Shown here piece after piece: positions 4,133-22,780 of a DNA stretch of 22,780 bases; position 1 is the stretch's first letter; the number at the start of each line of letters is the position of its first letter. The notes under the pieces are model-generated. The model was not told the origin of the DNA. It searched no databases and worked only from the letters and a program-made list of their open reading frames with translations. This stretch comes from a virus. The stretch is from positions 1 through 22,780 of the IMG/VR virus record IMGVR_UViG_3300006752_000251; one strand, 5' to 3'. Position numbers and translations under genes: made by a program.

Positions 4133-6418
4133 ATGGGAAAACTAATTAAAGAGTGGGTTAAGGGAATCTTAACTGAAGGAATAGAAAAAAAGGTAGTAGT
4201 TTACGCTGGTAGATTTCAACCTTTTCATAAAGGGCATAATGCCACTTACGAACATTTAGTGAAACAATTTGGTAGAGATAATGTTTATATTGGTACTTCT
4301 AATAAAACAGATAATTTAAAATCACCATTTAAGTTTAACGAAAAGAAAATGATTATGACAAAGATGTTTGGAGTTCCATCATCTAAGATTGTTCAAATCA
4401 AAAACCCATACGCTCCCAAAGAAATTATAGGTAAATTCAATAAAGATAAAACGGCATTTATTACTGTTGTTGGTGAAAAAGATAGATACAGATTAAAAGG
4501 TAAATACTTTGAACCATATCATCCTGATAAAATCCAAAAAGGATACGAAGAAAAGGGATATGTTTATGTAGCACCAGCTCAAAGTGGTGGGATTAGTGGA
4601 ACTGAAGTTAGAAAGTTATTATCATTTGGTAGTGATGATTCTAAAAAGAAAGGTTTCAAAAAAGCATATGATGGAAAGTTTAATCCAAAGATATATAAAT
4701 TTATAACAGATAGATTAGGTAAAATATCCACTAAGATGGAAAACTTTTTATCTACATTTGATTTTAATAAAATAATATCAGAAGGTAGTGCACTTTCAAC
4801 TACTAAAGGAACTGTTGATGATGGACCAGGTGCATATTATGGTAATTCAAAATCATATAAAGCGGTTGGAAAAGAAGCTGCAGAAAAATTAGGTTGGACT
4901 GTAGTTGATTATATATTAGGTACAGATGAAGAAACTATATATGATTTATTTGATGGTGGGATACCAGATAAATACCCAGTATCATATTTCCCATCAGGCG
5001 TTGCAGGTTTAGATGCACAATCACAAAGATATATTGATTTAAAAGGTTCACAGGCATATAAAGCTTGGGCAAAACATATTACAAAAGTAGCAACAATAGT
5101 AGGATATAAGTTAGTTGATTTCTTAGATGCTGAAAAATCTGTTGATAGTTCTAAAAATGAACCTCAGAAAGAAGAATCAGCAGAAAATATAATAAAAGAA
5201 GGATTGATTACCGAAGGTGGAGCATATGGACATATGGCTCACCCATTCGATACACAAATGAATCTAACATTTGGTGATTTAAAAACAATTATATCAAACG
5301 CATTAAATGGTAAGTTAGAATTCGCTAGAGAAAAAACAGATGGACAAGCACTTGCTATTAGTTGGAGAGATGATAAAGGTTTAATCGCCGCTCGTAATGG
5401 TGGACACCTAAAGAATAGTGGTGAAAACGCATTGGATATTAGTGGAGTAGCTTCTAAGTTTCAAGGTAGAGGTGGATTAACTGATGCATACAACTTCGCT
5501 ATGCAAGATTTATCTAAAGCAATCAAATCATTATCAAAAGCACAAAGAGATAAAGTATTCAATCAAGGTTCATCCTTTATGAATATAGAAGTTATATTCC
5601 CAACATCAGTAAATGTAATTCCTTATGGGCAACCTTTATTAGTATTCCACGGAACAATGCAATATAATATGGATGGGAAAGCAATTGGAGCTGATACATC
5701 AGCAGCAAGAATCTTAGCTGGGATGATTAAACAAATCAATCAAGATGTGCAAGATAATTATACAATACAAGGCCCACCTGTAGTTAATTTACCAAAATCG
5801 GAAGAACTTTCAAAGAAACAAGGTAAATACTATTCAGCACTAAACAAAATTCAAAAAGAATTTAAACTAAAAGATTCTAATGGTGTAGCTGATTATCATC
5901 AAGCATGGTGGGAACAATATGTTGATAAGAATTCACCATCTACATTAGATAACAAAACCAAAATGGGATTAGTTAAAAGATGGGCATTCTTTGATAACTC
6001 ATTCAGATTGAATAGAAAGAATATTACAGATTCTAAGGTATTAGATTGGGCAACCAAAACAGATAAGCAAGATAAAGCAAAAATATCTAAACAAAACCTT
6101 AGAAAGTTTGAAGATATATTCTTAGGTGTTGGTGCAGATGTACTTTCATTTATGAGTTCAGCACTTACAGTCAATCCTGATAAAGCACTTAGAACTATGA
6201 AATCAGAATTAGATAAGACTGTGAAAGCAGTTCAGAAAAGTGGTGATGTTAAGAAGATTGAAAAACTAAGAATGGAATTAGAACGATTAGCCGCAGTAGG
6301 TGGTAAAGATAAGATTGTACCAAATGAAGGAATCGTATTCACATACAAAGGTGGAACGTATAAATTAACTGGTACATTCGCATCATTAAATCAGATATTG
6401 GGATTAATGTACTTTTAA
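4133..6418 (+). CDS. NMN-adenylyltransferase-like / polynucleotide-ligase-like fusion, probable head cargo
   Basis: This 761-residue protein has three parts. Residues ~20-200 are a nucleotidyltransferase of the HxGH superfamily: GRFQPFHKGH (HKGH at 32-35) and ISGTEVR (154-160) match NadM-type NMN adenylyltransferases, which join NMN and ATP to make NAD+. Residues ~218-345 are unrecognised. Residues ~362-761 look like a covalent nucleotidyltransferase (DNA/RNA ligase superfamily): EKTDGQ (candidate motif I, Lys401), FMNIEVIFP (motif III, Glu486), NEGIVF (motif IV, Glu732) and TYKLTG (motif V, Lys744). A long helical insert lies between motifs III and IV. Candidate prohead-protease sites fall at domain borders: LTE15-G, ISE217-G, IKE356-G and LTE-like ITE361-G. 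The first closes a 15-residue amphipathic leader like a T4 capsid-targeting sequence. The adenylyltransferase call is firm, the ligase fold probable, the packaging inferred. Confidence 0.8.
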   Translation: MGKLIKEWVKGILTEGIEKKVVVYAGRFQPFHKGHNATYEHLVKQFGRDNVYIGTSNKTDNLKSPFKFNEKKMIMTKMFGVPSSKIVQIKNPYAPKEIIGKFNKDKTAFITVVGEKDRYRLKGKYFEPYHPDKIQKGYEEKGYVYVAPAQSGGISGTEVRKLLSFGSDDSKKKGFKKAYDGKFNPKIYKFITDRLGKISTKMENFLSTFDFNKIISEGSALSTTKGTVDDGPGAYYGNSKSYKAVGKEAAEKLGWTVVDYILGTDEETIYDLFDGGIPDKYPVSYFPSGVAGLDAQSQRYIDLKGSQAYKAWAKHITKVATIVGYKLVDFLDAEKSVDSSKNEPQKEESAENIIKEGLITEGGAYGHMAHPFDTQMNLTFGDLKTIISNALNGKLEFAREKTDGQALAISWRDDKGLIAARNGGHLKNSGENALDISGVASKFQGRGGLTDAYNFAMQDLSKAIKSLSKAQRDKVFNQGSSFMNIEVIFPTSVNVIPYGQPLLVFHGTMQYNMDGKAIGADTSAARILAGMIKQINQDVQDNYTIQGPPVVNLPKSEELSKKQGKYYSALNKIQKEFKLKDSNGVADYHQAWWEQYVDKNSPSTLDNKTKMGLVKRWAFFDNSFRLNRKNITDSKVLDWATKTDKQDKAKISKQNLRKFEDIFLGVGADVLSFMSSALTVNPDKALRTMKSELDKTVKAVQKSGDVKKIEKLRMELERLAAVGGKDKIVPNEGIVFTYKGGTYKLTGTFASLNQILGLMYF

Positions 6419-6429
6419 ATAAAATTCTC

Positions 6430-6438
6430 ATATTTATA
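6430..6438 (+). promoter_or_regulatory. ATATTTATA junction motif
   Basis: An exact ATATTTATA lies 17 bases before the ATG at 6455, in a 36-base gap with no Shine-Dalgarno. It is one of a set of such motifs at gene junctions. It may be a promoter for the 6455-9337 group, but read on the opposite strand it is TATAAATA, the T4 late promoter octamer. Confidence 0.35.
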
Positions 6439-6454
6439 TAAAACAAAATAAGTT

Positions 6455-7045
6455 ATGTCAAAGTTAAATAATATTAAAGCAGTAAAAGAAATGTTAGGTG
6501 GGGAACACAAAACCCAAACTAAAAAAACTATTTCATTTACTGATAAAGTTATTAAAAGAAGAGAAGTTGGTGAAACTTGGGCTGATGATAAAGGTCAAAA
6601 GTGGGAACAACGAAAAGGTTACAAAGTTAAAGTTGGTAAACTATCAGAACTCAGAACTGAGTTAAGAGCGTTTCCAAACTGCAACAAAGAAACTTGTACT
6701 TGTATTGAGCCAGGCCAAGCTGATTTAAAAATGAAAGCTATACATGGTATGTGTTTAGATTGTGTTACCTTAATGGAGTATGATTTAAAACAAAAAGGTG
6801 AGTACGAAGAGTACGAAAGAAAAAAAATGTTGGCTAATGCTGAGGCTTGGTTAAAACAAGCCGAAGTTGAAAAGGAAGTTTTAAAAACAACTCTAAAAGC
6901 TTCATTCATAAATGAAGATGGTTCTATTGAAGAATGGGCTGAAGGAATGAGTGAAGATGAGTTGGTAAGTAAAATTGATAATGATTTTGAAAAGTTTAGA
7001 ACAGATTTTATAGGAAAACTTAAAAATGAACAAACAACAGATTAA
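6455..7045 (+). CDS. Conserved T4-like phage protein with zinc-ribbon-like cysteines
   Basis: I do not know a function for this 196-residue protein, though its pattern resembles a family I recall from marine T4-like phages. An N-terminal helix (NIKAVKEMLGGE) is followed by a Trp-containing strand region (GETWADDKGQKWEQRKGY). A cysteine cluster follows, FPNCNKETCTC and, about 23 residues on, GMCLDCV, which could bind zinc. The C-terminal half is charged helix (KKMLANAEAWLKQAEVEKEVL) and ends in an acidic segment. The start is the ATG after the junction motif; no Shine-Dalgarno is visible. Its end overlaps the next gene by 20 bases, so the two are probably translated together. The neighbours suggest a virion or assembly role. 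Confidence 0.75.
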   Translation: MSKLNNIKAVKEMLGGEHKTQTKKTISFTDKVIKRREVGETWADDKGQKWEQRKGYKVKVGKLSELRTELRAFPNCNKETCTCIEPGQADLKMKAIHGMCLDCVTLMEYDLKQKGEYEEYERKKMLANAEAWLKQAEVEKEVLKTTLKASFINEDGSIEEWAEGMSEDELVSKIDNDFEKFRTDFIGKLKNEQTTD

Positions 7046-7451: not shown

Positions 7452-7453
7452 TA

Positions 7454-9337
7454 ATGAATACCAGATTAAATAAAAAAGTTAAAAAAGATTTAGATGCATA
7501 CTTCAAAGGATTTAGGGGCTCAGACCCAGAAGTACATCACGGATTAAAACACATCCTAATAGGTGCATTAACAGATGCTAACTTCCATAGTGAAGCTAAG
7601 AAAGTTCAAAGTATGTTTCCTAAAGCGAATCAATCTAAATATGCTGGTAGGAAAGATTGGGAAGATTCGATTGAACAGAATCATGGTGTACCAATTGCTA
7701 AAGCAGCAAAGTGGGATGGGTATGAGATTATAGATGCTATTTCATTTTTCGCATCAATGTTTATCGGTGGACCTGTAGGTGCTAAAATTACTTCACTTAA
7801 AGAAGGTATGAACGAAAATGTTAAAATGTTTGTAAGTAGATTTATCAAAGAAGTAACTCACTCACATGAATATGAAGATATGAGTTCAATGGGTGAAGAT
7901 GAAACTGATAAAGAAGAAATTAAAATAGGTGAATACCAAACTAAATACTTTCACGTTTGTCCTGGCGCATCATCACTATATGGTGATATAGAATCTAAGG
8001 GCGTTGATATGGATATGGCTGAAAGAAGTGTAAGATTACAAGATGCACTTTTCTTTATAGAAGAACACGTAGGTGGTGAAGGTTATACTCCTGATAAAGA
8101 TTATGTAATGGTGGCTAAAAATATAGCAAAAAACATTATGAAGATGGCTAAACTAATGGGATTGGAAAAAGAACACTCTTATATACAAGGGCATGTTGAT
8201 ACAATCATAAAATCAGTTGAAGGTAAAAAGTTAGAAGAAAAAGTAATCGAACTTACAGAAAAAAATGTACCAACAGACCCAGCTAAGTGGGCCGCATCTA
8301 AAGCAGCAGCTAAAAGAAAGTTTGATGTATATCCATCAGCATACGCTAATGCTTGGGCAGCTAAGAACTACAAAGGTAAAGGTGGTGGTTGGAGAACTAA
8401 AAAAGAATCAGTAAACGAAAATGATTCGTATTCAATCACAGATGATAAAGGTAGACACTTTTTACTTATAGTTGGTGAAGAACCAAAAGATTCTAAAGGA
8501 AAATCTGATTATAAAAAAGATGGATTTTACATTTCACCACAAAAAGGATTCAAAGGATTAATAACTGCATATTTTAAAGATGAGAAAACTCTCAAAAAAA
8601 ATATAGATAAGAAATACCATAACCAACTTGGTGAATCAATGAACGAAGGTAAAGTACACTTTGAAAAGAAATTAAAAAGTGGTAATATCTTTCAAGTAAT
8701 CGATAGAGATATGAAAGGTATGAAAAGACCTGAGAAAGAGGATAAGTTTCTTATGCAGATTGTAGATAAAAAAGGTAAGGTAGTTAAACACATTGGTTCA
8801 CACCCATCACTAAGTGGGGCTAAAAAGTATTCCAACTCAGTAAATGAAGCTAAAGAACCTGAAGTAATTACTACATTAAGAAAAATCGTAAAGAATAAAC
8901 AAAACGATTTAATTAAAGATACTAAGAGTGGTAAGAAGGTAAGAGTTGATATGAATTCAGCAAACTTAATGGTTCAAGTATATGATGCACTTAAACAACA
9001 ATCTAATAAAGATAAGTTTGTTAAGAGTGGTATTGTTAATATGGGTCATATGGCTTACAAACTTATGAAGAAAGAAAATACTTCTGAAGTAATTGAAGAG
9101 GCTGAGTATCAAGGTAGAAAAGTAGAACTTAACAAACCAATGCAAGGTGATTCTAAAAAATTCAAAGTATATGTTAAGAACGCTAAGGGTAATGTTGTAG
9201 TGGTTCACTTTGGACAAAAGGGAATGAATATTAAAAAGAAAAATCCAAAAGCTAGAAAATCATTTAGAGCTAGAATGAATTGTGATAACCCTGGACCAAA
9301 ATGGAAAGCAAACTATTGGTCTTGTAGAAAGTGGTAA
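7454..9337 (+). CDS. Modular polyprotein, probable prohead-protease substrate and head cargo
   Basis: AGGGG at 7442-7446 precedes the ATG by seven bases. No single family covers the 627 residues; the protein is a chain of modules separated by x-N-E or x-E-E peptides: LKE117-G, MNE121-N, VNE322-N, MNE398-G, VNE465-A and IEE549-A. The first module is helical with GLKHILIGALTDANFH and a hydrophobic stretch ISFFASMFIGG near residue 95. The module before residue 322 contains KFDVYPSAYANAWAAK and GKGGGW, a phage signature I recognise without known function. The last module ends FRARMNC, NPGPKWKANYWSCRKW, another recurring phage C-terminal signature with two cysteines. The middle modules (323-549) are short Lys-rich beta/alpha units. 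Sites ending E-G or E-A fit gp21-type cleavage; those ending E-N are weaker. Packaging into the head is inferred. Confidence 0.75.
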   Translation: MNTRLNKKVKKDLDAYFKGFRGSDPEVHHGLKHILIGALTDANFHSEAKKVQSMFPKANQSKYAGRKDWEDSIEQNHGVPIAKAAKWDGYEIIDAISFFASMFIGGPVGAKITSLKEGMNENVKMFVSRFIKEVTHSHEYEDMSSMGEDETDKEEIKIGEYQTKYFHVCPGASSLYGDIESKGVDMDMAERSVRLQDALFFIEEHVGGEGYTPDKDYVMVAKNIAKNIMKMAKLMGLEKEHSYIQGHVDTIIKSVEGKKLEEKVIELTEKNVPTDPAKWAASKAAAKRKFDVYPSAYANAWAAKNYKGKGGGWRTKKESVNENDSYSITDDKGRHFLLIVGEEPKDSKGKSDYKKDGFYISPQKGFKGLITAYFKDEKTLKKNIDKKYHNQLGESMNEGKVHFEKKLKSGNIFQVIDRDMKGMKRPEKEDKFLMQIVDKKGKVVKHIGSHPSLSGAKKYSNSVNEAKEPEVITTLRKIVKNKQNDLIKDTKSGKKVRVDMNSANLMVQVYDALKQQSNKDKFVKSGIVNMGHMAYKLMKKENTSEVIEEAEYQGRKVELNKPMQGDSKKFKVYVKNAKGNVVVVHFGQKGMNIKKKNPKARKSFRARMNCDNPGPKWKANYWSCRKW

Positions 9338-13907: not shown

Positions 13908-14756
13908 ATGAAGAAATTAAAACACAGTAAGTACAAAAATACAGGAATACTATTTGAATTATTAGTTAGGCAAATTGCTACTGATACTTTGAATAATAAA
14001 GATTCTTTGGCGACTAAAATTATTAAAGAGCACTTTGGTAAAAGTACAGAACTATCTAAAGAACTTAGATTGTATAAACTATTTATTGATGAAAACTTTG
14101 ATTCTGATTATAAAGCATCTGAATTTTTAAATATTATTCTAAAAGAACGAGTTAAATTAAATGAATCTGTTTTAAATAGACAGAAGTATAACTTAATTAA
14201 AGCAATTAAGAAGAATTTTGTAATAGAAGATTTCTTTAAGTATAGAGTTACTAACTATAAAGAGAACGCATCTATATATAAATTATTTGAGCATACAAAT
14301 TCAGATAATCCAAAAGAATATGTTGAATGTAAATCTACATTATTAGAATCACTAACAGGTAAATCTCAAACTGATGATAAAGTTGTTACAAAAATTAATG
14401 AAGAGTACTCAAAACAACCAAAAGAGGTAAGATTGCTAGCGTGGAAGATGTTAGTTGAGAATTTTAACAACAAATACACTACATTAACAGATAAGCAACA
14501 AGATATTCTTAGAGAATATATTAATTCTGTAGATAATTCTGTTAAATTGAAAAAATTTGTAGTAAGAGAGTGTAATTCTTTATCAAAAAATATTAAAGCA
14601 ATCAAAGTTACAGATAAAGTTACTCAGATTAAAGTAAATGAAGTTGTTAAACTAATATCTAAAGTAAAAACATCTAAAGTAATTACTGAATCTCAAATTT
14701 TATCGTTATTAAGATATACAGAATTACATAATGAATTGAAAAGGGTATTCAAATGA
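13908..14756 (+). CDS. Uncharacterised helical protein in the prohead-core gene position
   Basis: I do not recognise this 282-residue protein. It is Lys/Leu/Ile/Asn-rich and almost wholly helical by composition. It opens with KLKHSKYKNTGILFELLVRQ, a basic segment plus amphipathic helix, and carries further helices such as LNIILKERVKLNESVLNRQK and YNLIKAIKKNFVIEDFFKY. The C-terminal part contains VKLISKVKTSKVITESQI, where ITE-S resembles the prohead-protease consensus. In T4 the small prohead core genes 67 and 68 lie between portal and protease, so a core or scaffold role is plausible by position only. GAGG at 13896-13899 supports the start. The TGA overlaps the next ATG (ATGA), so the genes are coupled. 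Confidence 0.72.
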   Translation: MKKLKHSKYKNTGILFELLVRQIATDTLNNKDSLATKIIKEHFGKSTELSKELRLYKLFIDENFDSDYKASEFLNIILKERVKLNESVLNRQKYNLIKAIKKNFVIEDFFKYRVTNYKENASIYKLFEHTNSDNPKEYVECKSTLLESLTGKSQTDDKVVTKINEEYSKQPKEVRLLAWKMLVENFNNKYTTLTDKQQDILREYINSVDNSVKLKKFVVRECNSLSKNIKAIKVTDKVTQIKVNEVVKLISKVKTSKVITESQILSLLRYTELHNELKRVFK

Positions 14757-15241
14757 AAAGCTTAATCAAAGAAATAGAAGATAAGTTTGAAGAAATCGAA
14801 GAAGCTAATGTAACTGGTAACTTAGATGGTGGTGAGGGCCCAATCAAAACTCCACATGCTTTTGCAAAGAGTAAAGATGAGGATGATTTAGATGATGACC
14901 ACATAGAAGTGTTGGGTATGAAAAAATCAAAGGAGAAACATATGAACACAAAAAAATTAGAATCGTTAGAACGTAAGTTAGAAACTAAAATCAATGAGAT
15001 TTCTTATAATGAGTTCAAAAAAGATGATACAAGAAAGCAACATCAAAAAATAAATGATTCAATCAAAGAAATCAATAGTATGATGTTTAAGTTAGAAAGA
15101 ATCGTTAATCAAAATGCTAAATTGAAAACGGAAGCTGGTGTTCATAATGGGCAGTATTGGAAATCAACTCAAAAAAGATTTGGTAAGATTTCAGAACGTA
15201 TGTTAAAAGTTGCAAGAAACTTAAAAGAACTATCGGCATGA
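14753..15241 (+). CDS. Prohead core / internal protein with candidate capsid-targeting leader
   Basis: The 162-residue protein begins with an acidic amphipathic helix, MKSLIKEIEDKFEEIEE, followed by ANVTG. The IEE17-A18 junction fits the gp21 cleavage consensus, so residues 1-17 look like a capsid-targeting leader. Next comes GNLDGGEGPIKTPHAFAK, a Gly/Pro-rich strip that I recall from structural proteins of related phages, then a very acidic patch (DEDDLDDDH). The rest is a long coiled coil (MNTKKLESLERKLETKINEI to NSMMFKLERIVNQNAKLK) and a basic C-terminal helix. Position between portal and protease matches T4 genes 67 and 68 (prohead core). Its start and stop overlap its neighbours as ATGA, showing a tight operon. 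Orthology to 67 or 68 is not claimed. Confidence 0.78.
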   Translation: MKSLIKEIEDKFEEIEEANVTGNLDGGEGPIKTPHAFAKSKDEDDLDDDHIEVLGMKKSKEKHMNTKKLESLERKLETKINEISYNEFKKDDTRKQHQKINDSIKEINSMMFKLERIVNQNAKLKTEAGVHNGQYWKSTQKRFGKISERMLKVARNLKELSA

Positions 15242-15372
15242 TAGATAAAAAGAAAATATTAAAAGAAGAACTTTCAAATAAGGATTTGGAAAATATTCGT
15301 CTACTTATAAGATATGAAGTAGCACAAATCATGTTTGATTTATATAGAAAACGTAAAGTTTGGGGAGCATAA
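15238..15372 (+). CDS. 44-residue protein between core and protease genes
   Basis: A short gene fills the gap exactly. Its ATG (15238) overlaps the previous TGA as ATGA. Its TAA (15370-15372) shares one base with the protease ATG as TAATG. The product has two charged helices: MIDKKKILKEELSNKDLENI, then RLLIRYEVAQIMFDLYRKRK and a VWGA tail. There is no signal peptide or membrane span. Perfect packing between two overlapping neighbours is strong evidence that it is real. By location it could be a small prohead core protein, like T4 gp67 or gp68; its sequence alone does not show this. Confidence 0.75.
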   Translation: MIDKKKILKEELSNKDLENIRLLIRYEVAQIMFDLYRKRKVWGA

Positions 15373-15989
15373 TGGGCAGATTACTTATAGATACAATTCC
15401 TTTTACTATGACTAAGAGGCAAATCAATGAATCATTGGAAGATAACAATGGTAGATTGATTGTTAATGGTGTCCTACAACGTGCTGAAGCTGAAAACCAA
15501 AATGGTAGAGTTTACCCACGTTCAATCTTAGAAAGAGAAGTTGAAAAATACAAAGGTAGAGAAATTAAAGAGAATAGAGCTTTTGGTGAGTTAGACCATC
15601 CTGAATCTTCGGTAGTGGAACTAAAAAATACTTCACATATCATCAGAGAAGTATATTGGAAGGGTGATGATGTAATGGGTAAGGTAGAAGTACTAAAAAC
15701 TCCATCAGGGAACATCCTTAAAGAACTTTTAGAGGCAGGTTGTACTGTTGGTATCTCTTCAAGAGGTATGGGTTCTGTAAAAGAAGCTAGTAATGGTAAG
15801 ACTGTTACAGTTGAAGATGATTTTGATTTAATTTGTTGGGATTTTGTATCAAACCCATCAACACATGGTGCATTTATGAGACCTATGAACGAATCAGTAG
15901 TAGGAAAGAGTAAAACTCCATCATATAAAAAAATTAATACATTAGTAAGAGATATCATCTGTGAAATAGATGGTGTTTGTTCAATCTAA
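15372..15989 (+). CDS. 21: Prohead maturation protease (gp21-like)
   Basis: This serine protease of the T4 gp21 (S80) type cuts core and capsid proteins during head maturation, in the family at L/I-x-E followed by A, G or S. The 205 residues are close to T4 gp21's length. Visible signatures: NGVLQRAEAENQNGRVYP near the N-terminus; FGELDHPESS with candidate catalytic His76; GCTVGISSRGMGS with candidate nucleophile Ser129 or Ser130; and LICWDFVSNPSTHGAFM toward the C-terminus. The start is ATG 15372, preceded by GGGAG at 15362-15366 (five-base spacing); the TTG at 15360 is not needed. The next gene starts ten bases after the stop. Its predicted substrates appear to lie on both sides in this window. 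Confidence 0.95.
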   Translation: MGRLLIDTIPFTMTKRQINESLEDNNGRLIVNGVLQRAEAENQNGRVYPRSILEREVEKYKGREIKENRAFGELDHPESSVVELKNTSHIIREVYWKGDDVMGKVEVLKTPSGNILKELLEAGCTVGISSRGMGSVKEASNGKTVTVEDDFDLICWDFVSNPSTHGAFMRPMNESVVGKSKTPSYKKINTLVRDIICEIDGVCSI

Positions 15990-15999: not shown

Positions 16000-16038
16000 A
16001 TGAAATTAACTGATATACGAAACTCATTAAACGAAATC
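16000..16038 (+). repeat. Capsid-targeting-like leader, copy 1
   Basis: Codes MKLTDIRNSLNE-I, the N-terminus of the 722-residue polyprotein. It resembles the leaders of T4 internal head proteins, which end in a gp21 cut. Ile after Glu is not the usual residue, so cutting here is less certain than at the later copies. Confidence 0.5.
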
Positions 16039-18168
16039 TCAGCAATCGGTGGATTAAAACAGGTTGTAAAAGGTAATACTGATAGAGTAGAGGGAATTAA
16101 ACTATCAAAAGAAATGGCACAAGCTATGATTGATTGGTTTAACTCATCTCCTTATGGTAGAAAGTATCCAAAAGCAGCTAAAGCTAGATTACACATATCA
16201 TTAGGTATTATGAGTAATATGGGATTGGATAGATACGCTAAACACAAAGGTGCTAAAGAAGAATTAAAGTACATCAAAGATTTATCCAGAGCTATGAGAG
16301 ATAATGTAAATGAAGGAATAGAACCACAAATTAAAAAGATTGCATACTTCACAGGTACAAGACCTGAAGCAGTTGAGGATTTTGTTTCCAAACATACATT
16401 AAATATTACTAAACTTCTTAAATATGTTGAGAAGGGTAAACTTCCTCAAAGAATGGAACTTGTTTCTGCTCTTGCTGGTAGAGATGGCAACGCCACTCAG
16501 AAGAAAATTATTAAAATGTTTAGTGAATCAACAATTACTGAAGGTAAATTTAAAGTTGATGATTTAGTATATAACAAACGAACTAAGACAGTTGGTATCG
16601 TAAGAATTGGTGATGATAAATCAGGTGAAGTTAAAACTGATGCAGATGGTAATGTAGATGTAGATGATTTAGAAAAATACAATCCAATCAAATTTAAACA
16701 CCAATCAAAAGCTAAAGCAGCTCCATCTACTCAAAAGGAAGTAAGTAAGAGAGGGTTATTTAATCCATTCAAAAGTGAATCAGTAGTAAACGAAGGTAAG
16801 CATGATGATTTATTAGATAATCTTGCAGATATCGTTGGTAATGCTAAATCATTTATGGATATTGGTAAAGAGTTAAAAAGTAACAAAATAAAATATTCAT
16901 TTGGTACATCACCACTTCCAATGTATATAATCGATAAACCTGTTAAGATAGCAATTCTAAATAAGAAATATGCAGATGGTGCTGAAAGAGAAGTTGGTAG
17001 TACAGCAATTGGATTAATGGAATCTATGAAGATGAACGAAGCTAAGTACGATATCGGAATGGCTCGTAAAGGAAATGGGTTAACTATTTATAATAAAGCT
17101 GAAGAAGAAAATGGTGATTACAAAAATGTAGCCCACATTGATAACAAAGGTAAAATAAAATACTTAGATAAAAAAATACCATCTAACATTAAGAAACAAA
17201 TCGAAGCTGAGGCTAAGAAAATGATGGAAATTACAAAAGAGGGAACTATGAAACTAAAAAATATATTAAATGAATCATTTGAAAGTGGTAGAGTTTATTC
17301 AAACCCATTTCACACTCCTTTCGTTAAAGAAAACGATGATGAGAGACACGAAGAATCTGCAGAGATGAGTAATGAACAAAAGATGGCATTCTTAGAAGCG
17401 GTTAAATCATACAAAAAATTTGGTGAATCAATATACAGAAAAGAAGGATTAGCTAAAGTGTATGAATCAATCAGAGGATTGGTAGAAGTTGCTGGTAAGA
17501 ATATGGTTAAAGAAACTGAAGGTTCATTTGATGGTATTACAGTTGGTAGACACGTAAAAAGAATGAATGAATCATTCAAAGTATTTGAGAAAACTTTAAA
17601 AGAAGTTGGAACACTACAACAAAGATTAGAATCAACTTATGATGAGATTGGTGAAGTATTAGGAAAGTATTACGAAATCAATGAATTAGAAGAGGGTAAT
17701 GAATTCGGAGCTGCTAGAGCTAAAGCAATCGCAAATGGTGATAGTGAATTTGAAGTAGATGGTAAAAAGTATCCTGTAAAAGGTGTTGATAAAGATGATA
17801 AAGAAAATGCAAAAGAATTTACTAATGAATCTAAATCAATGAAACTTACTTCTTTACTAAATGAATCATTTGGAATAGGTGAATTACCATCATCTAAATT
17901 AATGAAGATGAAAGTATCAGCTAAAGAGATGATGGATTCAGTTAAGAATAAAAAAGTAAATGAGTCAGAAAAAATCAACGAAGGTTTTTCAACTTGGGAA
18001 ATGAGATTTTCTGATATGAATCTTGGTGGTGTTAAACTATCTAAGAAGAATGTGTATAAAGTAAAAGCAAGAAATACAGTTGAAGCTATTAAGAAAGCAG
18101 CTAAAATGGCTGGTGTTGGTGATAACTGGATTGCAACTGAAACCCATTCACTAAAAAAAATAGGATAA
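16000..18168 (+). CDS. 722-residue modular polyprotein with repeated capsid-targeting-like peptides
   Basis: The best start is ATG 16000 after AAGGGA; an ATG at 15970 would overlap the protease gene and spoil the leader. No enzyme is recognised. The leader MKLTDIRNSLNE-I is echoed inside the protein by MKLKNILNE425-S and MKLTSLLNE622-S, each beginning with Met, as if three genes had fused. Other candidate gp21 sites: VNE105-G, ITE181-G, VNE265-G, MNE347-A, TKE414-G, LEE565-G, VNE655-S and INE661-G. Modules between them include KFKVDDLVYNKRTKTVGIVR (a small beta-barrel-like unit after 182), a Lys-rich DIGMARKGNGLTIYN unit after 348, a helical bundle (427-560), FGAARAKAIANGDSEFEVDG (after 566) and a C-terminal WEMRFSDMNLGG unit. 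Packaging and processing in the prohead are inferred from these sites and from the neighbouring protease and capsid genes. Confidence 0.8.
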   Translation: MKLTDIRNSLNEISAIGGLKQVVKGNTDRVEGIKLSKEMAQAMIDWFNSSPYGRKYPKAAKARLHISLGIMSNMGLDRYAKHKGAKEELKYIKDLSRAMRDNVNEGIEPQIKKIAYFTGTRPEAVEDFVSKHTLNITKLLKYVEKGKLPQRMELVSALAGRDGNATQKKIIKMFSESTITEGKFKVDDLVYNKRTKTVGIVRIGDDKSGEVKTDADGNVDVDDLEKYNPIKFKHQSKAKAAPSTQKEVSKRGLFNPFKSESVVNEGKHDDLLDNLADIVGNAKSFMDIGKELKSNKIKYSFGTSPLPMYIIDKPVKIAILNKKYADGAEREVGSTAIGLMESMKMNEAKYDIGMARKGNGLTIYNKAEEENGDYKNVAHIDNKGKIKYLDKKIPSNIKKQIEAEAKKMMEITKEGTMKLKNILNESFESGRVYSNPFHTPFVKENDDERHEESAEMSNEQKMAFLEAVKSYKKFGESIYRKEGLAKVYESIRGLVEVAGKNMVKETEGSFDGITVGRHVKRMNESFKVFEKTLKEVGTLQQRLESTYDEIGEVLGKYYEINELEEGNEFGAARAKAIANGDSEFEVDGKKYPVKGVDKDDKENAKEFTNESKSMKLTSLLNESFGIGELPSSKLMKMKVSAKEMMDSVKNKKVNESEKINEGFSTWEMRFSDMNLGGVKLSKKNVYKVKARNTVEAIKKAAKMAGVGDNWIATETHSLKKIG
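17248..17277 (+). repeat. Capsid-targeting-like leader, copy 2 (internal Met)
   Basis: Codes MKLKNILNE-S at residues 417-426. KNILNE is also residues 4-9 of the major capsid protein. A GAGGGA at 17239-17244 stands three bases before the ATG, so internal initiation is conceivable though the spacing is short. A further candidate cut (TKE-G) lies just upstream. Confidence 0.55.
17839..17868 (+). repeat. Capsid-targeting-like leader, copy 3 (internal Met)
   Basis: Codes MKLTSLLNE-S at residues 614-623, close to copies 1 and 2 in sequence. No Shine-Dalgarno precedes this ATG, so it is more likely a relic of gene fusion, or a cleavage signal, than a start. Confidence 0.55.
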
Positions 18169-18173: not shown

Positions 18174-18599
18174 ATGGATTACTCAGATATATTACAAGAC
18201 ATTTCAGTTGATTTATCTTATATGGTAAAGAAACATCTAAAGAATATTAAAAAATTAGATTCCAAACAACAAAGACAATTTGGAAAGCTATTTGGAGATA
18301 TGAAGCAAGGTATTGATGATTTATCTGAAGGAGTAACCGAATCAGTAAATGAAGTCCGTGTTCCTAAAATGTATGTTAAGTATAGAGCAGTGATTAAAAA
18401 AATAAAAGAACTTGAGGAAAAGCAAAAACAATTGGCAGAACCATATTTTGCTGCAAGGTCCAAAGGTGATGTGGTAACTGCCAAGTCTCAATTGCAATTA
18501 ATGAAAAAGAATCAAAAGGATTTAGATGGTTATAGAAAAAATCTAGCAAGTATTGAATCGAAATACATAGATAATATGGATTATTTTCCAGGAGAATAA
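18174..18599 (+). CDS. Helical virion/assembly protein with one candidate protease site
   Basis: The 141-residue protein starts five bases after the polyprotein stop. The N-terminal ~50 residues are helical (MDYSDILQDISVDLSYMVKK), leading to DDLSE52-G, a good gp21-type site. VNE-V eleven residues later is a poor one. After RVPKMYVKYRAVI the protein is coiled coil (KKIKELEEKQKQLAEPYF, then LQLMKKNQKDLDGYRKNL) and ends in acidic DNMDYFPGE. No known domain is recognised. The 52-residue leader is longer than a simple targeting peptide, so cutting might instead remove an assembly segment. A strong terminator follows 24 bases after the stop and closes this transcription unit. Confidence 0.72.
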   Translation: MDYSDILQDISVDLSYMVKKHLKNIKKLDSKQQRQFGKLFGDMKQGIDDLSEGVTESVNEVRVPKMYVKYRAVIKKIKELEEKQKQLAEPYFAARSKGDVVTAKSQLQLMKKNQKDLDGYRKNLASIESKYIDNMDYFPGE

Positions 18600-18623: not shown

Positions 18624-18651
18624 AAAGGTTTGGTAATTCCAAACCTTTTTT
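18624..18651 (+). terminator. Strong intrinsic terminator
   Basis: A perfect 10-bp stem, AAAGGTTTGG (18624-18633) with CCAAACCTTT (18639-18648), encloses the loop TAATT and runs into six T (18646-18651). It ends the core-protease-polyprotein unit and sits immediately before the methyltransferase gene. A T-run on the upstream side means it may also work weakly in the other direction. Confidence 0.88.
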
Positions 18652-18665
18652 GTATATTAGACATT
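18652..18665 (+). promoter_or_regulatory. Candidate short-leader promoter region for the methyltransferase
   Basis: Only 14 bases separate the terminator from the ATG at 18666, with no Shine-Dalgarno. TTTTTTGTATATT (18646-18658) is identical to 11925-11937, where it also precedes a gene without a Shine-Dalgarno. A promoter overlapping the terminator is possible; so is read-through with leaderless-type initiation. Confidence 0.3.
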
Positions 18666-19988
18666 ATGAGTGGATTTTTATCAATATTAGATACAAGAAA
18701 GAAGGAATGGCAATCCCGCAAGAGTTGGTGGATACAAAAGTATGGCATACAATCCGAACTTGGTAGAGAAGATACTATATCATATTCTAAATTTTGGGAT
18801 GATGTCACTGTATCTATATTTGATGCTAAATTGTGTGAAGATATATACACCTCATTCATACCACCAAGTGGTTCAGTTCTTGACCCATTCGCAGGTGGTT
18901 CAGTTAGAGGTATTGTTGCTGAAGAGTTAGGGTTTGACTACACTGGTATTGAGTTATCACAAGAACAAGTCAATGCTAATGAACTACAATCTAATAAACC
19001 TACTTGGATATGTGGAGATAGTGATGAAATATTAGACAACTTAGATACTCAGTACGATTTGGTATTTACCTGCCCACCATATCACGACTTAGAAATATAT
19101 TCAGATAATACAAACGACCTATCGAATATGGATTGGGATGGGTTTCTTATCAAATACAAGTCAATCATACAAAAGTCATACGATAAACTAAAAGATAATA
19201 GGTTCTTTATTGTAGTGGTGACTGAGATACGAGATAGAATGACCACTGGTGATTATAAGATTGGTAAGTATAAGGGATTTGTTCCATCTACTATTCAGAT
19301 TGCCGAAGAATGTGGGTTTCATTACTATAATGATGTTGTATTGATAAACCCATCTCAGCAATCGGGGAGAATGTCTAATGTATATTTTAATCGTAATAGG
19401 AAAGTAGCATCAACTCATCAGAATGTTTTGATGTTTGTAAAAGGAAACCCAGACCTTGCAACTGAAGATATTCAATGGGATGGGACATATGTTTGTGAGA
19501 TAGATGGTAAGAAGTATAAATCATTTAGAGAAGCTGCAATAGATATTGACCCAAATAGATTAGTTGCATCTGAAATACAACGTAGATGTAAATCAACTAA
19601 ATACAAATATAAAAATTGGAATGTAATTGGTGTTGATAAGCAACCTGATATAAAATTTGAAATCGATGGTGTGTTATTTCAATCTATATCTCAAATAGCC
19701 AAATTACTTGATAATGTAAGTGAAACTAATGCTAGAACTTGGACAGACTCAAACTCTAAAAATTGGAGTCATTGGAAGCGTGTATCTCCAAACGATTATG
19801 ATGTATCTTATACTGATATGGAAAAAACTTGGAATAACCCAATTCGACTTGAACTAAATACAATCAAATGTGAGGGTGTTGAGTTTACAACAATAAAAAA
19901 AGCAGCAGAGTATTTCAATTTGTCATCTGAACGTGTACGGCAAAAGATACTTTCTGATAAATATGATGATTATACTTATCTTAATTAA
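18666..19988 (+). CDS. DNA methyltransferase (N6-adenine/N4-cytosine type) with three NUMOD-like repeats
   Basis: The protein transfers a methyl group from S-adenosylmethionine to an amino group on DNA. VLDPFAGGSVRG (D73-P-F) is the cofactor motif and FTCPPYH (134-140) the catalytic (S/T/D)PPY-type motif. Motif I before motif IV, about 60 residues apart, gives a gamma-like order. NQNVLMFVKGNP-type sequence closes the catalytic domain near residue 265. The C-terminal third holds three related ~45-residue units, at about 274-318, 328-372 and 398-440, each with a short strand, (I/V)-(D/E)-G, an aromatic, then a helical segment such as SFREAAIDID, SISQIAKLLD or TIKKAAEYFN. This resembles the NUMOD helix-turn-helix repeats of homing endonucleases and may read the DNA target. 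The start is ATG 18666; the TTG at 18630 lies in the terminator. It may protect phage DNA from host restriction. Confidence 0.9.
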   Translation: MSGFLSILDTRKKEWQSRKSWWIQKYGIQSELGREDTISYSKFWDDVTVSIFDAKLCEDIYTSFIPPSGSVLDPFAGGSVRGIVAEELGFDYTGIELSQEQVNANELQSNKPTWICGDSDEILDNLDTQYDLVFTCPPYHDLEIYSDNTNDLSNMDWDGFLIKYKSIIQKSYDKLKDNRFFIVVVTEIRDRMTTGDYKIGKYKGFVPSTIQIAEECGFHYYNDVVLINPSQQSGRMSNVYFNRNRKVASTHQNVLMFVKGNPDLATEDIQWDGTYVCEIDGKKYKSFREAAIDIDPNRLVASEIQRRCKSTKYKYKNWNVIGVDKQPDIKFEIDGVLFQSISQIAKLLDNVSETNARTWTDSNSKNWSHWKRVSPNDYDVSYTDMEKTWNNPIRLELNTIKCEGVEFTTIKKAAEYFNLSSERVRQKILSDKYDDYTYLN

Positions 19989-19998
19989 ATTTATTTTG

Positions 19999-20045: not shown

Positions 20046-20066
20046 ATAAACATTTATCAAAACAAT

Positions 20067-20333
20067 ATGAACGATAACGAAAAGAAGTTTAAAAGACCTT
20101 ACAAAAAAGTTAGAAGAGAGGATATGGAAGTACCAGGAAACTCAATGGCAGTTAAGGTTGTAAATGGTAACATAGAATTAGCACTCAAAGCTTTCAAAAG
20201 AAAAATTAAAGATAGTGGTAAGATGGATGAGGTTAAAGCCCGAAAAGAATATATCAAACCATCAGCTATCAAACGTAAACAAAAAGCAGATGCGATTCGA
20301 GCCCAATGGCGAAGAAATCAATTCGAAAATTAA
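20067..20333 (+). CDS. rpsU: Phage-encoded ribosomal protein bS21 homologue
   Basis: The C-terminal ~60 residues have the bS21 pattern: MAVKVVNGNIELALKAFKRK (a beta strand, then a basic helix), DSGKMDEVKARKEYIKPS with the conserved E-x-x-x-(R/K)-(R/K)-x-(F/Y)-x-KPS-type segment, and a Lys/Arg-rich terminal helix (IKRKQKADAIRAQWRR). In bacteria bS21 sits by the anti-Shine-Dalgarno end of 16S rRNA and aids initiation; phage versions are known from marine myoviruses. Three starts are possible. ATG 20067 adds a basic 26-residue extension (88 residues total, no Shine-Dalgarno). ATG 20124 has GAGAGG too close. ATG 20145 has AGGAA at 20135-20139 and gives a normal-length 62-residue bS21. The gene stands alone between two hairpins, downstream of the methyltransferase. 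It may bias host ribosomes toward phage messages. Confidence 0.82.
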   Translation: MNDNEKKFKRPYKKVRREDMEVPGNSMAVKVVNGNIELALKAFKRKIKDSGKMDEVKARKEYIKPSAIKRKQKADAIRAQWRRNQFEN

Positions 20334-20338
20334 ATAGT

Positions 20339-20358: not shown

Positions 20359-20423
20359 CAATAATACTACACTATTTATTGTAGAAAAAATATCGGCTTC
20401 CAATAGTCGATTAAATTTATTTT

Positions 20424-20431
20424 TATAAATA
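20424..20431 (+). promoter_or_regulatory. T4-type late promoter for scaffold and capsid genes
   Basis: TATAAATA is an exact match to the T4 late promoter octamer, in the correct direction, 56 bases before the scaffold ATG. Transcription would start about 10 bases downstream, near 20440, just at the leader hairpin. This is the only exact match in this orientation that I found in an intergenic gap here, in front of the genes that need the highest expression. Confidence 0.6.
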
Positions 20432-20439
20432 ATATCTAT

Positions 20440-20459
20440 TAAGATTCTCAATAATCTTA
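20440..20459 (+). promoter_or_regulatory. 5'-leader hairpin of the scaffold-capsid mRNA
   Basis: TAAGATT (20440-20446) pairs with AATCTTA (20453-20459) over a CTCAAT loop. If transcription begins near 20440 the stem would form the very 5' end of the message, where it could slow decay. A good ribosome binding site follows (AGGAG, 20476-20480, seven bases before ATG). Confidence 0.45.
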
Positions 20460-20487
20460 TTTCCAAAAACAATTTAGGAGAACAATT

Positions 20488-21534
20488 ATGGCAAATAGAA
20501 AAGATTTGTTATCTGAAGCTATCGCTGATGCTAAAGCCGTTAAAGAAACTGCACTAGCAAACGCTAAATTAGCCTTAGAAGAAGCGTTCACCCCAAAACT
20601 ACAATCAATGATTTCTGCAAAATTAGCTGAAGAAGCTGATGAGGAAGAGATGGATGAAGATTTAGATTCAACAGATTTAGGTTCAAGCGATAACGCAGAA
20701 CCAAATGATGGTGCATCTGATTCATCTGATATCGAAAACGATGATGAATTGACTGAAGAAGAAGGTGAAGAGCACAACGAAGAAGAAGAAGTTAAAGAAG
20801 AAGAAGAAGAAATGAAATCTGAAGAAGAGGACATGGAAGAATCTGAAGAAGAAGCTACTGATGAAACTTATGAATCTGAAGAAGAAGTATCTGAAGAAGA
20901 TATGGAAGATGAAGAAGAAGAAGATGATTTAGATTTAGAATCTGTAATCGCTGAATTAGAAGCTGAAATGGCTGAAGAAGAGGACATGGAAGAATCTGAA
21001 GAAGAAGCTACTGATGAAACTTATGAATCTGAAGAAGAAGCTGTTGCTGAAGAAGATGACATGGATGAAGAAGAAGAAATCGACTTAGACGAAGTTATTA
21101 AAACTTTGAAAGAGATGGAAGAATCTGATGACATGGAAGAATCTGAAGAAGAAGCAAACGAAGAAGAAGAAGTAGAAGAAAATGATGAGTTAGAAGAAGC
21201 TTACTTAACAATTGAAAGTTTACAAAAAACTATCAATGAAGTTAATTTACTTAACGCTAAGTTACTTTACACTAACAAATTATTCAGAACTTTTGACTTA
21301 AACGAAAACCAAAAGGTAAAAGTTTTAGAAAACTTCGATAGAACTTCATCAGTAAGAGAAGTGAAATTAGTATTCTCAACTTTAGCAGAAAACTTAAACG
21401 TTGCTAAAAAGAAAAGAACTGTTGTAAAAGAAGGATATGCCTCAAAAGCAACAAAGAGTTCTGCACCGAAGAAAATAATTTCTGAGGGTAACGATATGGC
21501 CGCTAGATGGAAAAAACTAGCAGGTTTAAAATAA
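20488..21534 (+). CDS. 22: Prohead core scaffolding protein (gp22-like), highly acidic
   Basis: The 348-residue protein sits directly before the capsid gene, as T4 gene 22 does. It would form the core on which the capsid assembles and be degraded by the gp21-like protease. It opens with ANRKDLLSE10-AIADAKAV, a helix with a gp21-type site. Residues ~45-235 are extremely acidic, with a duplicated EDMEESEEEATDETYESEEE unit. The C-terminal ~115 residues are ordered and helical: EEAYLTIESLQKTINEVNLL, NAKLLYTNKLFRTFDLNENQ, then a segment ending FSTLAENLNV. Further candidate cuts are VKE-GY and ISE-GND near the end. A basic patch (KKKRTVV) and ARWKKLAGLK close the protein. The acidic body is much expanded relative to what I would expect of gp22; identity rests on position, composition and the C-terminal region. 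Confidence 0.88.
   Translation: MANRKDLLSEAIADAKAVKETALANAKLALEEAFTPKLQSMISAKLAEEADEEEMDEDLDSTDLGSSDNAEPNDGASDSSDIENDDELTEEEGEEHNEEEEVKEEEEEMKSEEEDMEESEEEATDETYESEEEVSEEDMEDEEEEDDLDLESVIAELEAEMAEEEDMEESEEEATDETYESEEEAVAEEDDMDEEEEIDLDEVIKTLKEMEESDDMEESEEEANEEEEVEENDELEEAYLTIESLQKTINEVNLLNAKLLYTNKLFRTFDLNENQKVKVLENFDRTSSVREVKLVFSTLAENLNVAKKKRTVVKEGYASKATKSSAPKKIISEGNDMAARWKKLAGLK
20819..20887 (+). repeat. 69-bp direct repeat in scaffold gene, copy 1
   Basis: Identical over 69 bases to 20972-21040, in the same frame, 153 bases (51 codons) apart. It codes the acidic EDMEESEEEATDETYESEEE unit. A shorter third copy (GACATGGAAGAATCTGAAG and onward) lies at about 21130-21155. Confidence 0.9.
20972..21040 (+). 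repeat. 69-bp direct repeat in scaffold gene, copy 2
   Basis: Second perfect copy of 20819-20887. Identity at synonymous positions indicates a recent in-frame duplication, or repeated recombination or slippage in the GAA-rich tract. Confidence 0.9.
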
Positions 21535-21562
21535 TTAATAAGATTAATAACGGAGAAAAAAA

Positions 21563-22780
21563 ATGGATTTAAAAAACATTTTAAATGAAGGTTCTTCTCA
21601 CACCGCAAGACTATCTGAAGCTACAAGAGCTTTAGCTGGTAAGTGGGAAAAAACCGGTCTTTTAGAAGGTATTGACAACGAAGTTGAAAAAGCTGGTGTT
21701 GCAACACTTTTAGAAAACCAAGCAAGACAATTAGTAAAAGAGGCTTCTTCTACTGGTACTTCTGCAAATTCAGAAGAGTGGGCTGGTGTAGCTCTACCAT
21801 TGGTAAGAAGAATTTTTAGTGAAATCGTAGCAAAGGATTTCGTATCTGTACAACCAATGAACTTACCATCAGGTCTAGTATTTTATCTAGATTTCAAATA
21901 TGGTACAGGTCAAGCTGGATTTGCAACAGGTAGTGGTAAAGATTCACAAGCTGATTCTGTATTTGGTATTACTGATACATCAAATGACCCATCAGGTGGT
22001 TTATATGGTGCTGGTAGATTCGGATACTCTATCAACGATAACACATCTGCTACTCAAACATTAGGAGATGCAGCTGCATCTAATGTATTCTTAACATCAT
22101 CTGTATCTTTAGCAGACGTGAACTATGATACTCAATTTACTGCATCTAATGGTGCTGCTATTTTAGCAGGTACTATATGTAAAGTTGCTGTACCAAAAGC
22201 TTCTATCGCTGGATATGATGACAAAGGAATCAGAGGATTTAGAATTGAAGGTTCTGAGATTACAGATAACTACCCACAATTTACTGTAGAGAGTGGTGAT
22301 GATATCGTATTCGTAGTAAAAACTTCAGGATTCAACGCAAGTGGTGATGCTGATGAAGTTGTGGTAAAATATCACAAACAACCAACTGATATTTCAAGAG
22401 GTGACTTCGAAGCAACAGGAACTCAATTAACTTCTAACCCAGAAGCTGATATCGATATTCCTGAATTGAATGTTGAAATGAAGAGTTTACCAATTGTTGC
22501 TAAGACACGTAAGTTGAAAGCACAATGGACTCCTGAATTCGCACAAGATTTAAATGCATATCACTCAATTGATGCAGAAGCTGAATTAACTTCTATGTTA
22601 TCTGAATACGTTTCGCAAGAAATAGATTTAGAACTTTTAGATATGTTAATCCAGAATGCTCAAACAACTGATAGATGGTCAGCAAGAGTTGGATATGAAT
22701 GGAATGCAGGAAGTGCTGCATTTGATCAATCTAATGCAACTGCTCAAGCATACAACCAAGGAACTTGGTTCCAAACTTTA
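21563..22780 (+). CDS. 23: Major capsid protein (gp23-like), 3'-truncated
   Basis: The frame is open from ATG 21563 to the window edge (406 codons). GGAG at 21552-21555 supports the start. Conserved gp23 stretches are clear: TLLENQARQLVKEASS, PLVRRIFSEIVAKDFVSVQP, MNLPSGLVFYLDFKYG, TRKLKAQWTPEFAQDLNAYH followed by SIDAEAELTSMLSEYVSQEI. The N-terminal peptide is removed in T4 after residue 65; here LVKE60-A61 is the best equivalent. LKNILNE9-G and RLSE19-A are extra candidate sites within the leader. The first nine residues resemble the internal leaders of the 722-residue polyprotein. The protein forms the hexameric capsid lattice. Coupled with the scaffold gene, only 28 bases upstream, it is probably driven by the late promoter at 20424. 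Confidence 0.97.
   Translation, partial: MDLKNILNEGSSHTARLSEATRALAGKWEKTGLLEGIDNEVEKAGVATLLENQARQLVKEASSTGTSANSEEWAGVALPLVRRIFSEIVAKDFVSVQPMNLPSGLVFYLDFKYGTGQAGFATGSGKDSQADSVFGITDTSNDPSGGLYGAGRFGYSINDNTSATQTLGDAAASNVFLTSSVSLADVNYDTQFTASNGAAILAGTICKVAVPKASIAGYDDKGIRGFRIEGSEITDNYPQFTVESGDDIVFVVKTSGFNASGDADEVVVKYHKQPTDISRGDFEATGTQLTSNPEADIDIPELNVEMKSLPIVAKTRKLKAQWTPEFAQDLNAYHSIDAEAELTSMLSEYVSQEIDLELLDMLIQNAQTTDRWSARVGYEWNAGSAAFDQSNATAQAYNQGTWFQTL

Follow-up and report, generated by a model that had tools for sequence, protein, structure and literature searches.

Motif-rich proteins in the head gene block

The 22,780-base IMG/VR record IMGVR_UViG_3300006752_000251, analyzed over its whole length and called the window below, comes from a T4-related phage whose terminase is ~57% identical to the terminases of Flavobacterium phage immuto and Microcystis phage Mel-JY01. 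It encodes the terminase, a T4-type portal and an S77 prohead protease (recognized with Pfam or PHROGs) as well as a scaffold and a capsid precursor (identified from their positions and from their resemblance to capsid genes annotated in immuto and Mel-JY01). Interspersed among these head genes are long proteins nearly without database matches. An earlier sequence-only reading of the window had noted in them, as in capsid and scaffold, peptides of the form [LIVM]xE|[GAS] (the bar marks the expected cut), and had proposed that the phage packages modular polyproteins, cuts them in the head with gp21 and ejects the products with its DNA. Comparison with related phages strongly supports the architectural part of this proposal: the proteins of 722, 627 and 141 amino acids (aa) and an adenylyltransferase-ligase fusion appear to be modular polyproteins with the signal of the head protease at their joints.

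The gp21-type prohead protease is encoded at 15372..15989 (this and all features below are on the + strand) and matches Peptidase S77 (Pfam PF03420, 120.8 bits, cut-off 27) and phrog_207 (180.7 bits). Close to each end of the protease itself lies a site of this type (QINE|S and MNE|S); QINE|S and [MV]NE|S are both found in the window and in the 13 closest distinct homologues among the matches listed. One gp21 homologue (G009:C1:1332-1952) contains a single internal TAA.

The 722-aa polyprotein (16000..18168) has predicted sites at E12, E105, E181, E265, E341, E347, E425, E489, E524, E562, E565, E622, E655 and E661; where at least nine motifs had been claimed, twelve were found. Its leader, MKLTDIRNSLNE|I (E12, 16000..16035), precedes a chain of modules, numbered here by module family. 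Module m09 (aa 13-105, 16036..16314) has a site before it in 9/9 contexts and m17 (aa 106-181, 16315..16542) has NE before it in 5/5; the latter is also found in other genes of loci L050, L054, L058, L059/G001 and L065. Then follow m31 (aa 182-265, 16543..16794), m12 (aa 266-347, 16795..17040; also delimited as aa 266-341), which occurs in 722-type genes and, in relatives L032/G006 and G003, in 627-type genes, and m03 (aa 348-416, 17041..17247), preceded by [LIVM]NE in 16/16 contexts. In mid-chain, a ribosome-binding-site-like GAGGGAACT, an ATG and a leader MKLKNILNE|S (aa 417-425; together 17239..17274) introduce the core module m01/m00 (aa 426-565, 17275..17694), which is the most frequent module and part of which is a single 154-aa gene in Mel-JY01. 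A second internal leader, MKLTSLLNE|S (aa 614-622, 17839..17865), and the C-terminal module m14 (aa 662-722, 17983..18165), with a site in 7/7 contexts at one of two neighbouring offsets, complete the protein.

The 627-aa polyprotein (7454..9337) has sites at E117, E121, E322, E394, E398, E465 and E549, and modules at aa 1-117, 122-322, 323-394, 399-465, 466-549 and 550-627; all four motifs named for it earlier (E117, E398, E465, E549) are present, plus E394. It matches phrog_7595 and phrog_27331, both of unknown function. For its C-terminal module m07 (aa 550-627, 9101..9334), tblastn gave 25 records with matches starting at query residues 535-560, and [LIVM]xE precedes the module in 14/14 distinct contexts, HTVC008M included; in phages C48C1 and Melnitz it is preceded, by eye, by LTE| and MME|, respectively. 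Its occurrence extends to immuto, pelagiphages, roseophages and phages of Methylophilales; going by their names, some of these are podo- or siphophages. The 141-aa protein (18174..18599) combines a constant 52-aa N-terminal part (m10) with an exchangeable C-terminal part after E52/E56/E60 (E52 had been named, E56 is an additional motif). Seen 21 times and always N-terminal, m10 is joined to five named partner families (m02, m22, m09, m40, m30) and to single ones.

The adenylyltransferase-ligase fusion, in which E15, E217, E356 and E361 are all present as claimed, starts with the leader MGKLIKEWVKGILTE|G (E15, 4133..4177); relatives have ILTE or ILSE there too, some (L119, L121, L123) with D or N at position P1'. 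The following module (aa 16-217, 4178..4783) is nicotinamide-nucleotide adenylyltransferase (NMNAT)-like (Pfam CTP_transf_like, 33.6 bits; NMNATs in the PDB, E 2.8e-5; NCBIfam NMNAT models match below their cut-offs), and its border E217 aligns with [LIVM]xE in four relatives (G003, G004, G006, G007). A middle stretch of varying length in relatives (aa 218-361, 4784..5215), closed by sites E356 and E361, separates it from an RNA-ligase-like nucleotidyltransferase module (aa 362-761, 5216..6415) with the peptides REKTDGQ, NEGIVF and YKLTG. Of these, KTDG, NEG[I]VF and KLTG, which we take to be RNA ligase superfamily motifs, are invariant or nearly so in 20 aligned sequences. The assignment of the fold to RNA ligases is suggestive: in the model (predicted local distance difference test score, pLDDT, of 66), VIA-align matched T4 Rnl2 with Z 5.2 and a root-mean-square deviation of 3.9 over 105 aa, weak RNA-ligase rows being mixed with unrelated ones, and Foldseek returned nothing at E<=0.001. 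An early role of both enzyme-like modules in NAD or RNA-end repair chemistry is a guess. The adenylyltransferase chain of immuto, gp088 (L068 7132-9855), has several sites. Two HExxH stretches can be seen in it by eye, and its Peptidase_M91 match, at 17.3 bits, stays below the cut-off of 25 bits.

Motif counts were compared with 2000 shuffles of each protein. For the broad motif [LIVM]xE|[GAS], the 722-aa protein has 12 occurrences against 3.43 expected (p=0.0005), the scaffold 9 against 3.48 (p=0.0045), the gp21 protease 4 against 1.06 (p=0.016), a 282-aa protein encoded between portal and protease 3 against 0.73 (p=0.028), the 627-aa protein 5 against 1.97 (p=0.049), the 141-aa protein 2 against 0.38 (p=0.052) and the capsid 4 against 1.54 (p=0.063). 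The narrow form [LIVM]NE stands out further in the 722-aa (10 vs 1.0, p=0.0005) and 627-aa (4 vs 0.51, p=0.0015) proteins. The control proteins stay at chance level, with 2 motifs in TerL (1.5 expected), 3 in the portal (2.2), 0 in the methyltransferase (1.0) and 4 in the tail fibre (3.6); on the strength of shuffles and controls, mere composition was rejected as the source of the motifs. The expected excess over shuffled sequence, then, was borne out in the 722- and 627-aa proteins and the scaffold and failed to appear in the ligase fusion and in a 162-aa core-like protein (1 vs 0.65, not significant); in these two, motif number was dropped as evidence and conservation alone counts. As the broad motif arises by chance about once per 200-400 residues in shuffles, some occurrences are likely not real cleavage sites.

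The same pattern is seen at the genome level, in six related IMG/VR contigs (74-253 kb), the complete immuto genome and the window, with open reading frames (ORFs) called by a simple longest-frame rule and entries that, coming from homologous contigs, are not independent. [LIVM]NE[GAS] occurs 39 times against 1.0 expected in the 722 family (12 ORFs), 18 against 0.7 in the 627 family (10 ORFs) and 6 against 0.03 in the 141 family (4 ORFs), which gives 63 vs 1.7 in 26 ORFs compared with 54 vs 39.6 in 886 other ORFs, so that the enrichment is not one shared with the remaining genes, the outcome that would have spoken against the sequence-only reading. It is likewise frequent in gp21 (11 vs 0.5) and gp23 (6 vs 0.7) and absent from portals (0 vs 1.1), TerL (0 vs 0.5) and tail fibres (0 vs 1.5). 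Motif counts are 25 vs 7.0 in the 282-aa family and 57 vs 30.3 in the scaffold family; the ligase-fusion family has 1 vs 0.8 of the narrow and 24 vs 11.7 of the broad form. The motif excess is concentrated in head-region genes. Among the ORFs of immuto, the top [LIVM]NE excess belongs to gp079 (7 vs 0.83), a motif-rich 841-aa protein encoded between the adenylyltransferase gene and the terminase, where the 627-aa gene is also placed in the window; immuto has several leader-bearing genes as well.

Modules exchanged at motif joints

One scan of viral contigs revealed 66 loci with relatives of the 722-aa protein, and their homology to it comes in blocks. Polyprotein candidates were required to have at least three [LIVM]NE and at least 100 aa. 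The module set excluded scaffold-, 282-aa- and protease-like ORFs and ORFs <70 aa, and removal of contained duplicates reduced it from 298 to 160 ORFs. Cut at the predicted sites, these gave 666 segments of at least 25 aa and 52 families of at least two members; on one side, two or more different neighbours are seen in 45 of these families and three or more in 29. The 52 include the two halves of the 162-aa protein, a tandem family (m13) and a scaffold repeat (m50); without these, 43 of 48 families have changing neighbours. A chain has up to 20 predicted sites, most of them at module borders, and most modules between sites are left whole at ~50-120 aa. Searches of the modules against Pfam, PHROGs and NCBIfam were mostly empty, with a few matches too weak for use; m28 corresponds to phrog_1987 and m34 to phrog_5268, both of unknown function. 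An 823-aa chain (G001:C1:215563-218034), located far from gp21 and lacking a leader site up to residue 22, combines a module that is P-loop-kinase-like by eye (phrog_5268) with four other recurring module families.

As the segments had themselves been cut at sites, an independent test is provided by the points at which homology breaks off; its pooled version with site shifts is the main one. In the pooled ORFs of at least 150 aa from the 160-ORF set, internal starts of aligned stretches fall within five residues of a site at a frequency of 0.511 (0.164 by chance) and internal ends at 0.639 (0.171 by chance); none of 200 site shifts gave a value above 0.242. With each breakpoint counted once, the values are 0.464 of 442 starts and 0.562 of 377 ends compared with about 0.165. 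The alignments are blind to the motif, and the related sequences in them are not independent. In a motif-free check, the dipeptides most enriched at breakpoints (counting those with 60 or more occurrences) are NE, SV, ES, VN and EG, which spell the joint ESVNE|G. The earlier placing of sites at domain borders agrees well with these breaks (51-64% vs 16-17% by chance). In a single-protein version of the test with an earlier, cruder setting, the 627-aa protein reached p=0.0095.

The joints are kept while their surroundings vary, as the sequence-only reading had expected of homologues; this holds for m03 and m07 (16/16 and 14/14, see above) and for the ligase-like module. The latter starts with GG(A)YGH, and the three residues ahead of it read [LI]xE in 58/58 distinct contexts, Mel-JY01 included, with mostly L, T or M at P2 and other residues in a few. 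From 15 to 741 aa lie upstream of it in complete ORFs of relatives, the locus L065 having a stand-alone ligase gene behind a 15-aa leader. A second site is located five residues upstream of the joint in 47/57 contexts (one of the 58 was too short for the offset profile). [LIVM]xE also stands directly before m08 in 12/12 and before m11 in 7/7 contexts, and before m12 directly in 5/7 and within eight residues in 7/7. In these counts two of 15 rows for m01 are chance regex matches, and the pattern used for gp23 gave zero matches. Different DNA encodes the joints: 24 distinct 9-mers are used at 53 joints of the ligase, 12 at 15 of m07, 8 at 19 of m03 and 5 at 12 of m08; therefore the constraint is at least partly on the protein. 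The comparisons show modules that are lost, gained and moved from gene to gene at motif joints.

Leaders, core-like proteins and gene fusion

In a survey of ORFs of at least 80 aa, with a leader taken as a site at residues 7-22, 46/182 ORFs within 15 kb of gp21 have a leader (local background 7-11% per same-size window) and 26/670 far from gp21 (background 5-6%). N-terminal leaders ending in a site are present in the ligase fusion (E15), the 162-aa protein (E17), the 722-aa protein (E12, with I at P1'), gp22 and gp23; the claim that motifs end short leaders stands for the first three and does not extend to the 627- and 141-aa proteins. The N-terminal precursor region of gp23 (21563..21742) has the sites E9 (leader), E19, E35 and E60. 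Among the matches listed, LLE|G and [VIL]xE|A are present in 22/22 distinct gp23 N-termini and the leader site in 21/22, the exception being Mel-JY01. A leader-to-prohead route is supported by analogy, given the concentration of leaders near gp21 and the similar leader on the capsid protein (MDLKNILNE|G, resembling the internal MKLKNILNE|S of the 722-aa protein).

The head genes of T4 are ordered 20-67-68-21-22-23, and the positions of the 282-, 162- and 722-aa genes fit this block. The motif-enriched 282-aa protein (13908..14756) is a core-protein candidate by position. The 162-aa core-like protein starts with the leader MKSLIKEIEDKFEEIEE|A (14753..14803), whose E17 was among the motifs named earlier; in 10/11 distinct contexts, Mel-JY01 included, [LIVM]xE is kept ahead of NVTGNxDG. 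The gp22-like scaffold (20488..21534) has nine sites. A 388-aa ORF of Mel-JY01 in the protease-to-scaffold interval looks ADP-ribosyltransferase-like by eye; Pfam gave nothing, and the label was not used. A homologue of ribosomal protein S21 is encoded at 20067-20333 (Pfam 45.6 bits, NCBIfam 48.4 bits), with polyprotein genes on one side and the scaffold on the other; in Mel-JY01, an annotated RpsU is likewise located between protease and scaffold. The head gene block also contains a DNA methylase (N6_N4_Mtase, 18630-19988) with a C-terminal I-TevI-like DNA-binding stretch slightly below cut-off (25.1 vs 27 bits), and the tail-fibre gene ends in an S74 (endosialidase chaperone) domain (3784-3975).

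The internal leaders of the 722-aa chain have counterparts at gene starts. L024-L027 and L032 encode the core module in a gene of 272 aa and m09 in another of 100 aa that has a leader, and L039, L040 and L047 have separate genes of 190 and 111 aa. The N-termini of the separate genes, MKLKDLLNE|S and MIKLKKLINE|S, correspond to the internal MKLKNILNE|S (matching in L024-L027, L032 and L039) and MKLTSLLNE|S (the gene start of the 111-aa gene), the latter being without Shine-Dalgarno pairing in the window. Pairing of -5 kcal/mol or better is predicted at 13/33 distinct internal leader ATGs, many of them related, compared with 62/1115 other internal ATGs and 23% of 385 predicted gene starts. Because internal leaders match separate-gene N-termini, some with a Shine-Dalgarno sequence, the chains are most simply explained by in-frame fusion of small leader-bearing genes, and the internal translation starts may still be working.

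Proposed cargo polyproteins and the alternatives

At a probability of about 0.66, our preferred explanation is that the 722-, 627- and 141-aa proteins and the adenylyltransferase-ligase fusion are modular head cargo polyproteins, cut by gp21, whose products are ejected with the DNA. Capsid-like short leaders, N-terminal or mid-chain, would take the chains into the prohead core; the 627- and 141-aa proteins, which lack an N-terminal leader, would have to enter in another way. The gp21-type serine protease (S77) is expected to cut after Glu in [LIVM]-x-E|[SAG], with a preference for [VLIM]-N-E, which, to judge from the motif, its conservation and the presence of the protease, would free the leaders and separate the modules. 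The small products, including the adenylyltransferase-like and RNA-ligase-like enzymes, would remain with the DNA and, by analogy with T4 internal proteins and Alt, probably enter the cell at infection. Single leader genes with a ribosome-binding site and a start codon could fuse into such chains or leave them. A broader version of this explanation has even chances in our estimate: T4-related phages would share a pool of ~50 modules, with joints serving both as protease sites and as DNA crossover points, so that modules inserted in frame are packaged, cut free and injected, and leaders bearing ribosome-binding sites let genes join or leave the chain.

Several observations weigh against the cargo explanation. 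Cleavage, packaging and ejection are inferred, and the accessible literature yielded no virion proteomics for immuto or Mel-JY01; papers on virion proteomics of giant phage RaK2 and of cyanophages were not helpful. Sites E489, E524 and E562 fall within the conserved core module, so either this module is also cut up or these motifs are unused. AlphaFold gave only a poor model for the 722-aa protein (mean pLDDT 45), for which reason folded modules with exposed joints lack model support, and the tested stretches of the 722- and 627-aa proteins have no Pfam match above cut-off. The motif count of the ligase fusion is not significant (4 vs 1.89 expected, p=0.12), and adenylyltransferase chains of more distant phages differ, with 0 broad motifs against 1.3 expected in HTVC008M and 6 against 1.7 in Melnitz. 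Other ORFs too carry 1.2-1.4 times the shuffled motif number, which indicates that the shuffle baseline is a little low. Taken singly, the 722-aa protein has borderline breakpoint clustering (p=0.054), and 47/68 proteins among those listed miss p<0.05 (21/68 reach it). Finally, a motif is missing from residues 7-22 of the window's 627- and 141-aa proteins, and the m07 of Aegir, also a more distant phage, forms a protein by itself and has no leader.

The most serious alternative, although an unlikely one, is that these are core proteins which assist the scaffold, like gp22, gp67 and gp68 of T4, and that the gp21 peptides leave the head as waste. The 722-aa gene is located between protease and scaffold; the core module that it encodes outnumbers all others, is partly a lone gene in Mel-JY01 and has sites inside its helical sequence; moreover, T4 gp22, gp67 and gp68 are reported to be fragmented by gp21 (PMC9026906, PMC5694885). 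However, the other modules are exchangeable accessories, among them adenylyltransferase- and ligase-like enzyme domains for which a scaffold has no evident use, and most sites spare the modules, being at their borders. Even in the poor 722-aa model, the stretches 271-320 and 361-410 between sites average a pLDDT of at least 70 (571-600 about 69-70).

It is less probable still that joints of the ESVNE type act purely as DNA, as linkers through which homologous recombination exchanges modules, and that proteolysis plays no part. The DNA is indeed nearly constant at some joints: SVNE is encoded by TCAGTAAACGAA in 44/67 distinct contexts compared with 0.081 expected from codon use, which makes it usable as a crossover point and suggests that the SVNE joint also serves recombination. 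Yet the same protein pattern is written in other DNA at many joints (see the 9-mers of ligase and m07 above), it persists in places without visible exchange (gp23, gp21, the 162-aa leader), and N-terminal leaders end in it. Least probable of all is that the modules are mainly separate proteins made from internal translation starts, the long reading frames being incidental fusions: the Shine-Dalgarno pairing and the separate genes of relatives fit this, but only leader-type joints (M-K-L...LNE) could be explained, while at many others (ESVNE, SVVNE) a start codon is missing and the modules could be released only by cleavage.

The cargo explanation can be placed among known systems. In RNA viruses, polyproteins are resolved by a viral protease that frees many products at repeated short sites; unlike in these, the protease here is encoded by its own gene and would act inside the capsid, and the products would be accessory cargo. 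In T4, gp21 recognizes L/I-x-E and cuts behind the Glu, and IPIII needs no more than its first 10 residues for packaging (PMC9026906). The T4 internal proteins IPI-III and Alt resemble the window proteins in the short N-terminal leader ending in a gp21-type site, the S77 protease encoded by the phage and the enzymes among the candidates, but are described as having one leader and usually one product per gene, Alt being also trimmed C-terminally (PMC9026906); the chains of the window and its relatives have many modules, numerous predicted sites and mid-chain leaders. Polyvalent proteins (Iyer et al. 2017, PMC5512222) likewise consist of several unlike domains per chain, shuffled among relatives, are thought to be packaged and transferred, and have been proposed to be processed; the number of domains reported for them (2-15) is matched here. 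Mainly zincin-like or assemblin-like peptidase domains of the chain itself are held responsible for their processing (PMC5512222), whereas the window joints match the separate head protease of the phage. With Pfam, no peptidase domain was found in the window chains, and none of the characteristic polyvalent domains (zincin-like peptidase, ArdC-N, ART and others) matched above cut-off in the 722- and 627-aa proteins. In the giant phages phiKZ and SPN3US, whose ejection proteins are cut by gp175/gp245, the head protease cuts several packaged proteins after Glu in a short motif (A-X-E in SPN3US); in SPN3US this is mostly propeptide removal, with 13/14 identified sites being N-terminal, and the accessible parts of these reports describe no domain-by-domain dissection (PMC10052503, PMC5694885). 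The large packaged antirestriction proteins DarA, DarB and DdrB of P1 include a capsid-targeting signal (DarB) and processing that is shown for DdrB and believed for DarA, but no shuffled module series with repeated protease joints is apparent in the accessible text of their descriptions (PMC9024508, PMC5512222). A literature search covering open papers revealed no published account of polyproteins dissected module by module in this way. What would be new is the combination of T4 capsid-targeting leaders with a polyvalent-protein architecture, in which the head protease acts in trans on joints that are prone to recombination.

If true, the cargo explanation would provide a sequence rule for which uncharacterized proteins of these T4-related phages reach the host, and long uncharacterized genes could be divided into small, testable proteins. 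Cultured Flavobacterium phage immuto, with gp079 and its leader-bearing genes, allows testing. The joints and leaders could be used for loading chosen proteins into phage heads. It would also explain how phages rapidly exchange the proteins that they inject, comparable to polymorphic toxins swapping their tips.

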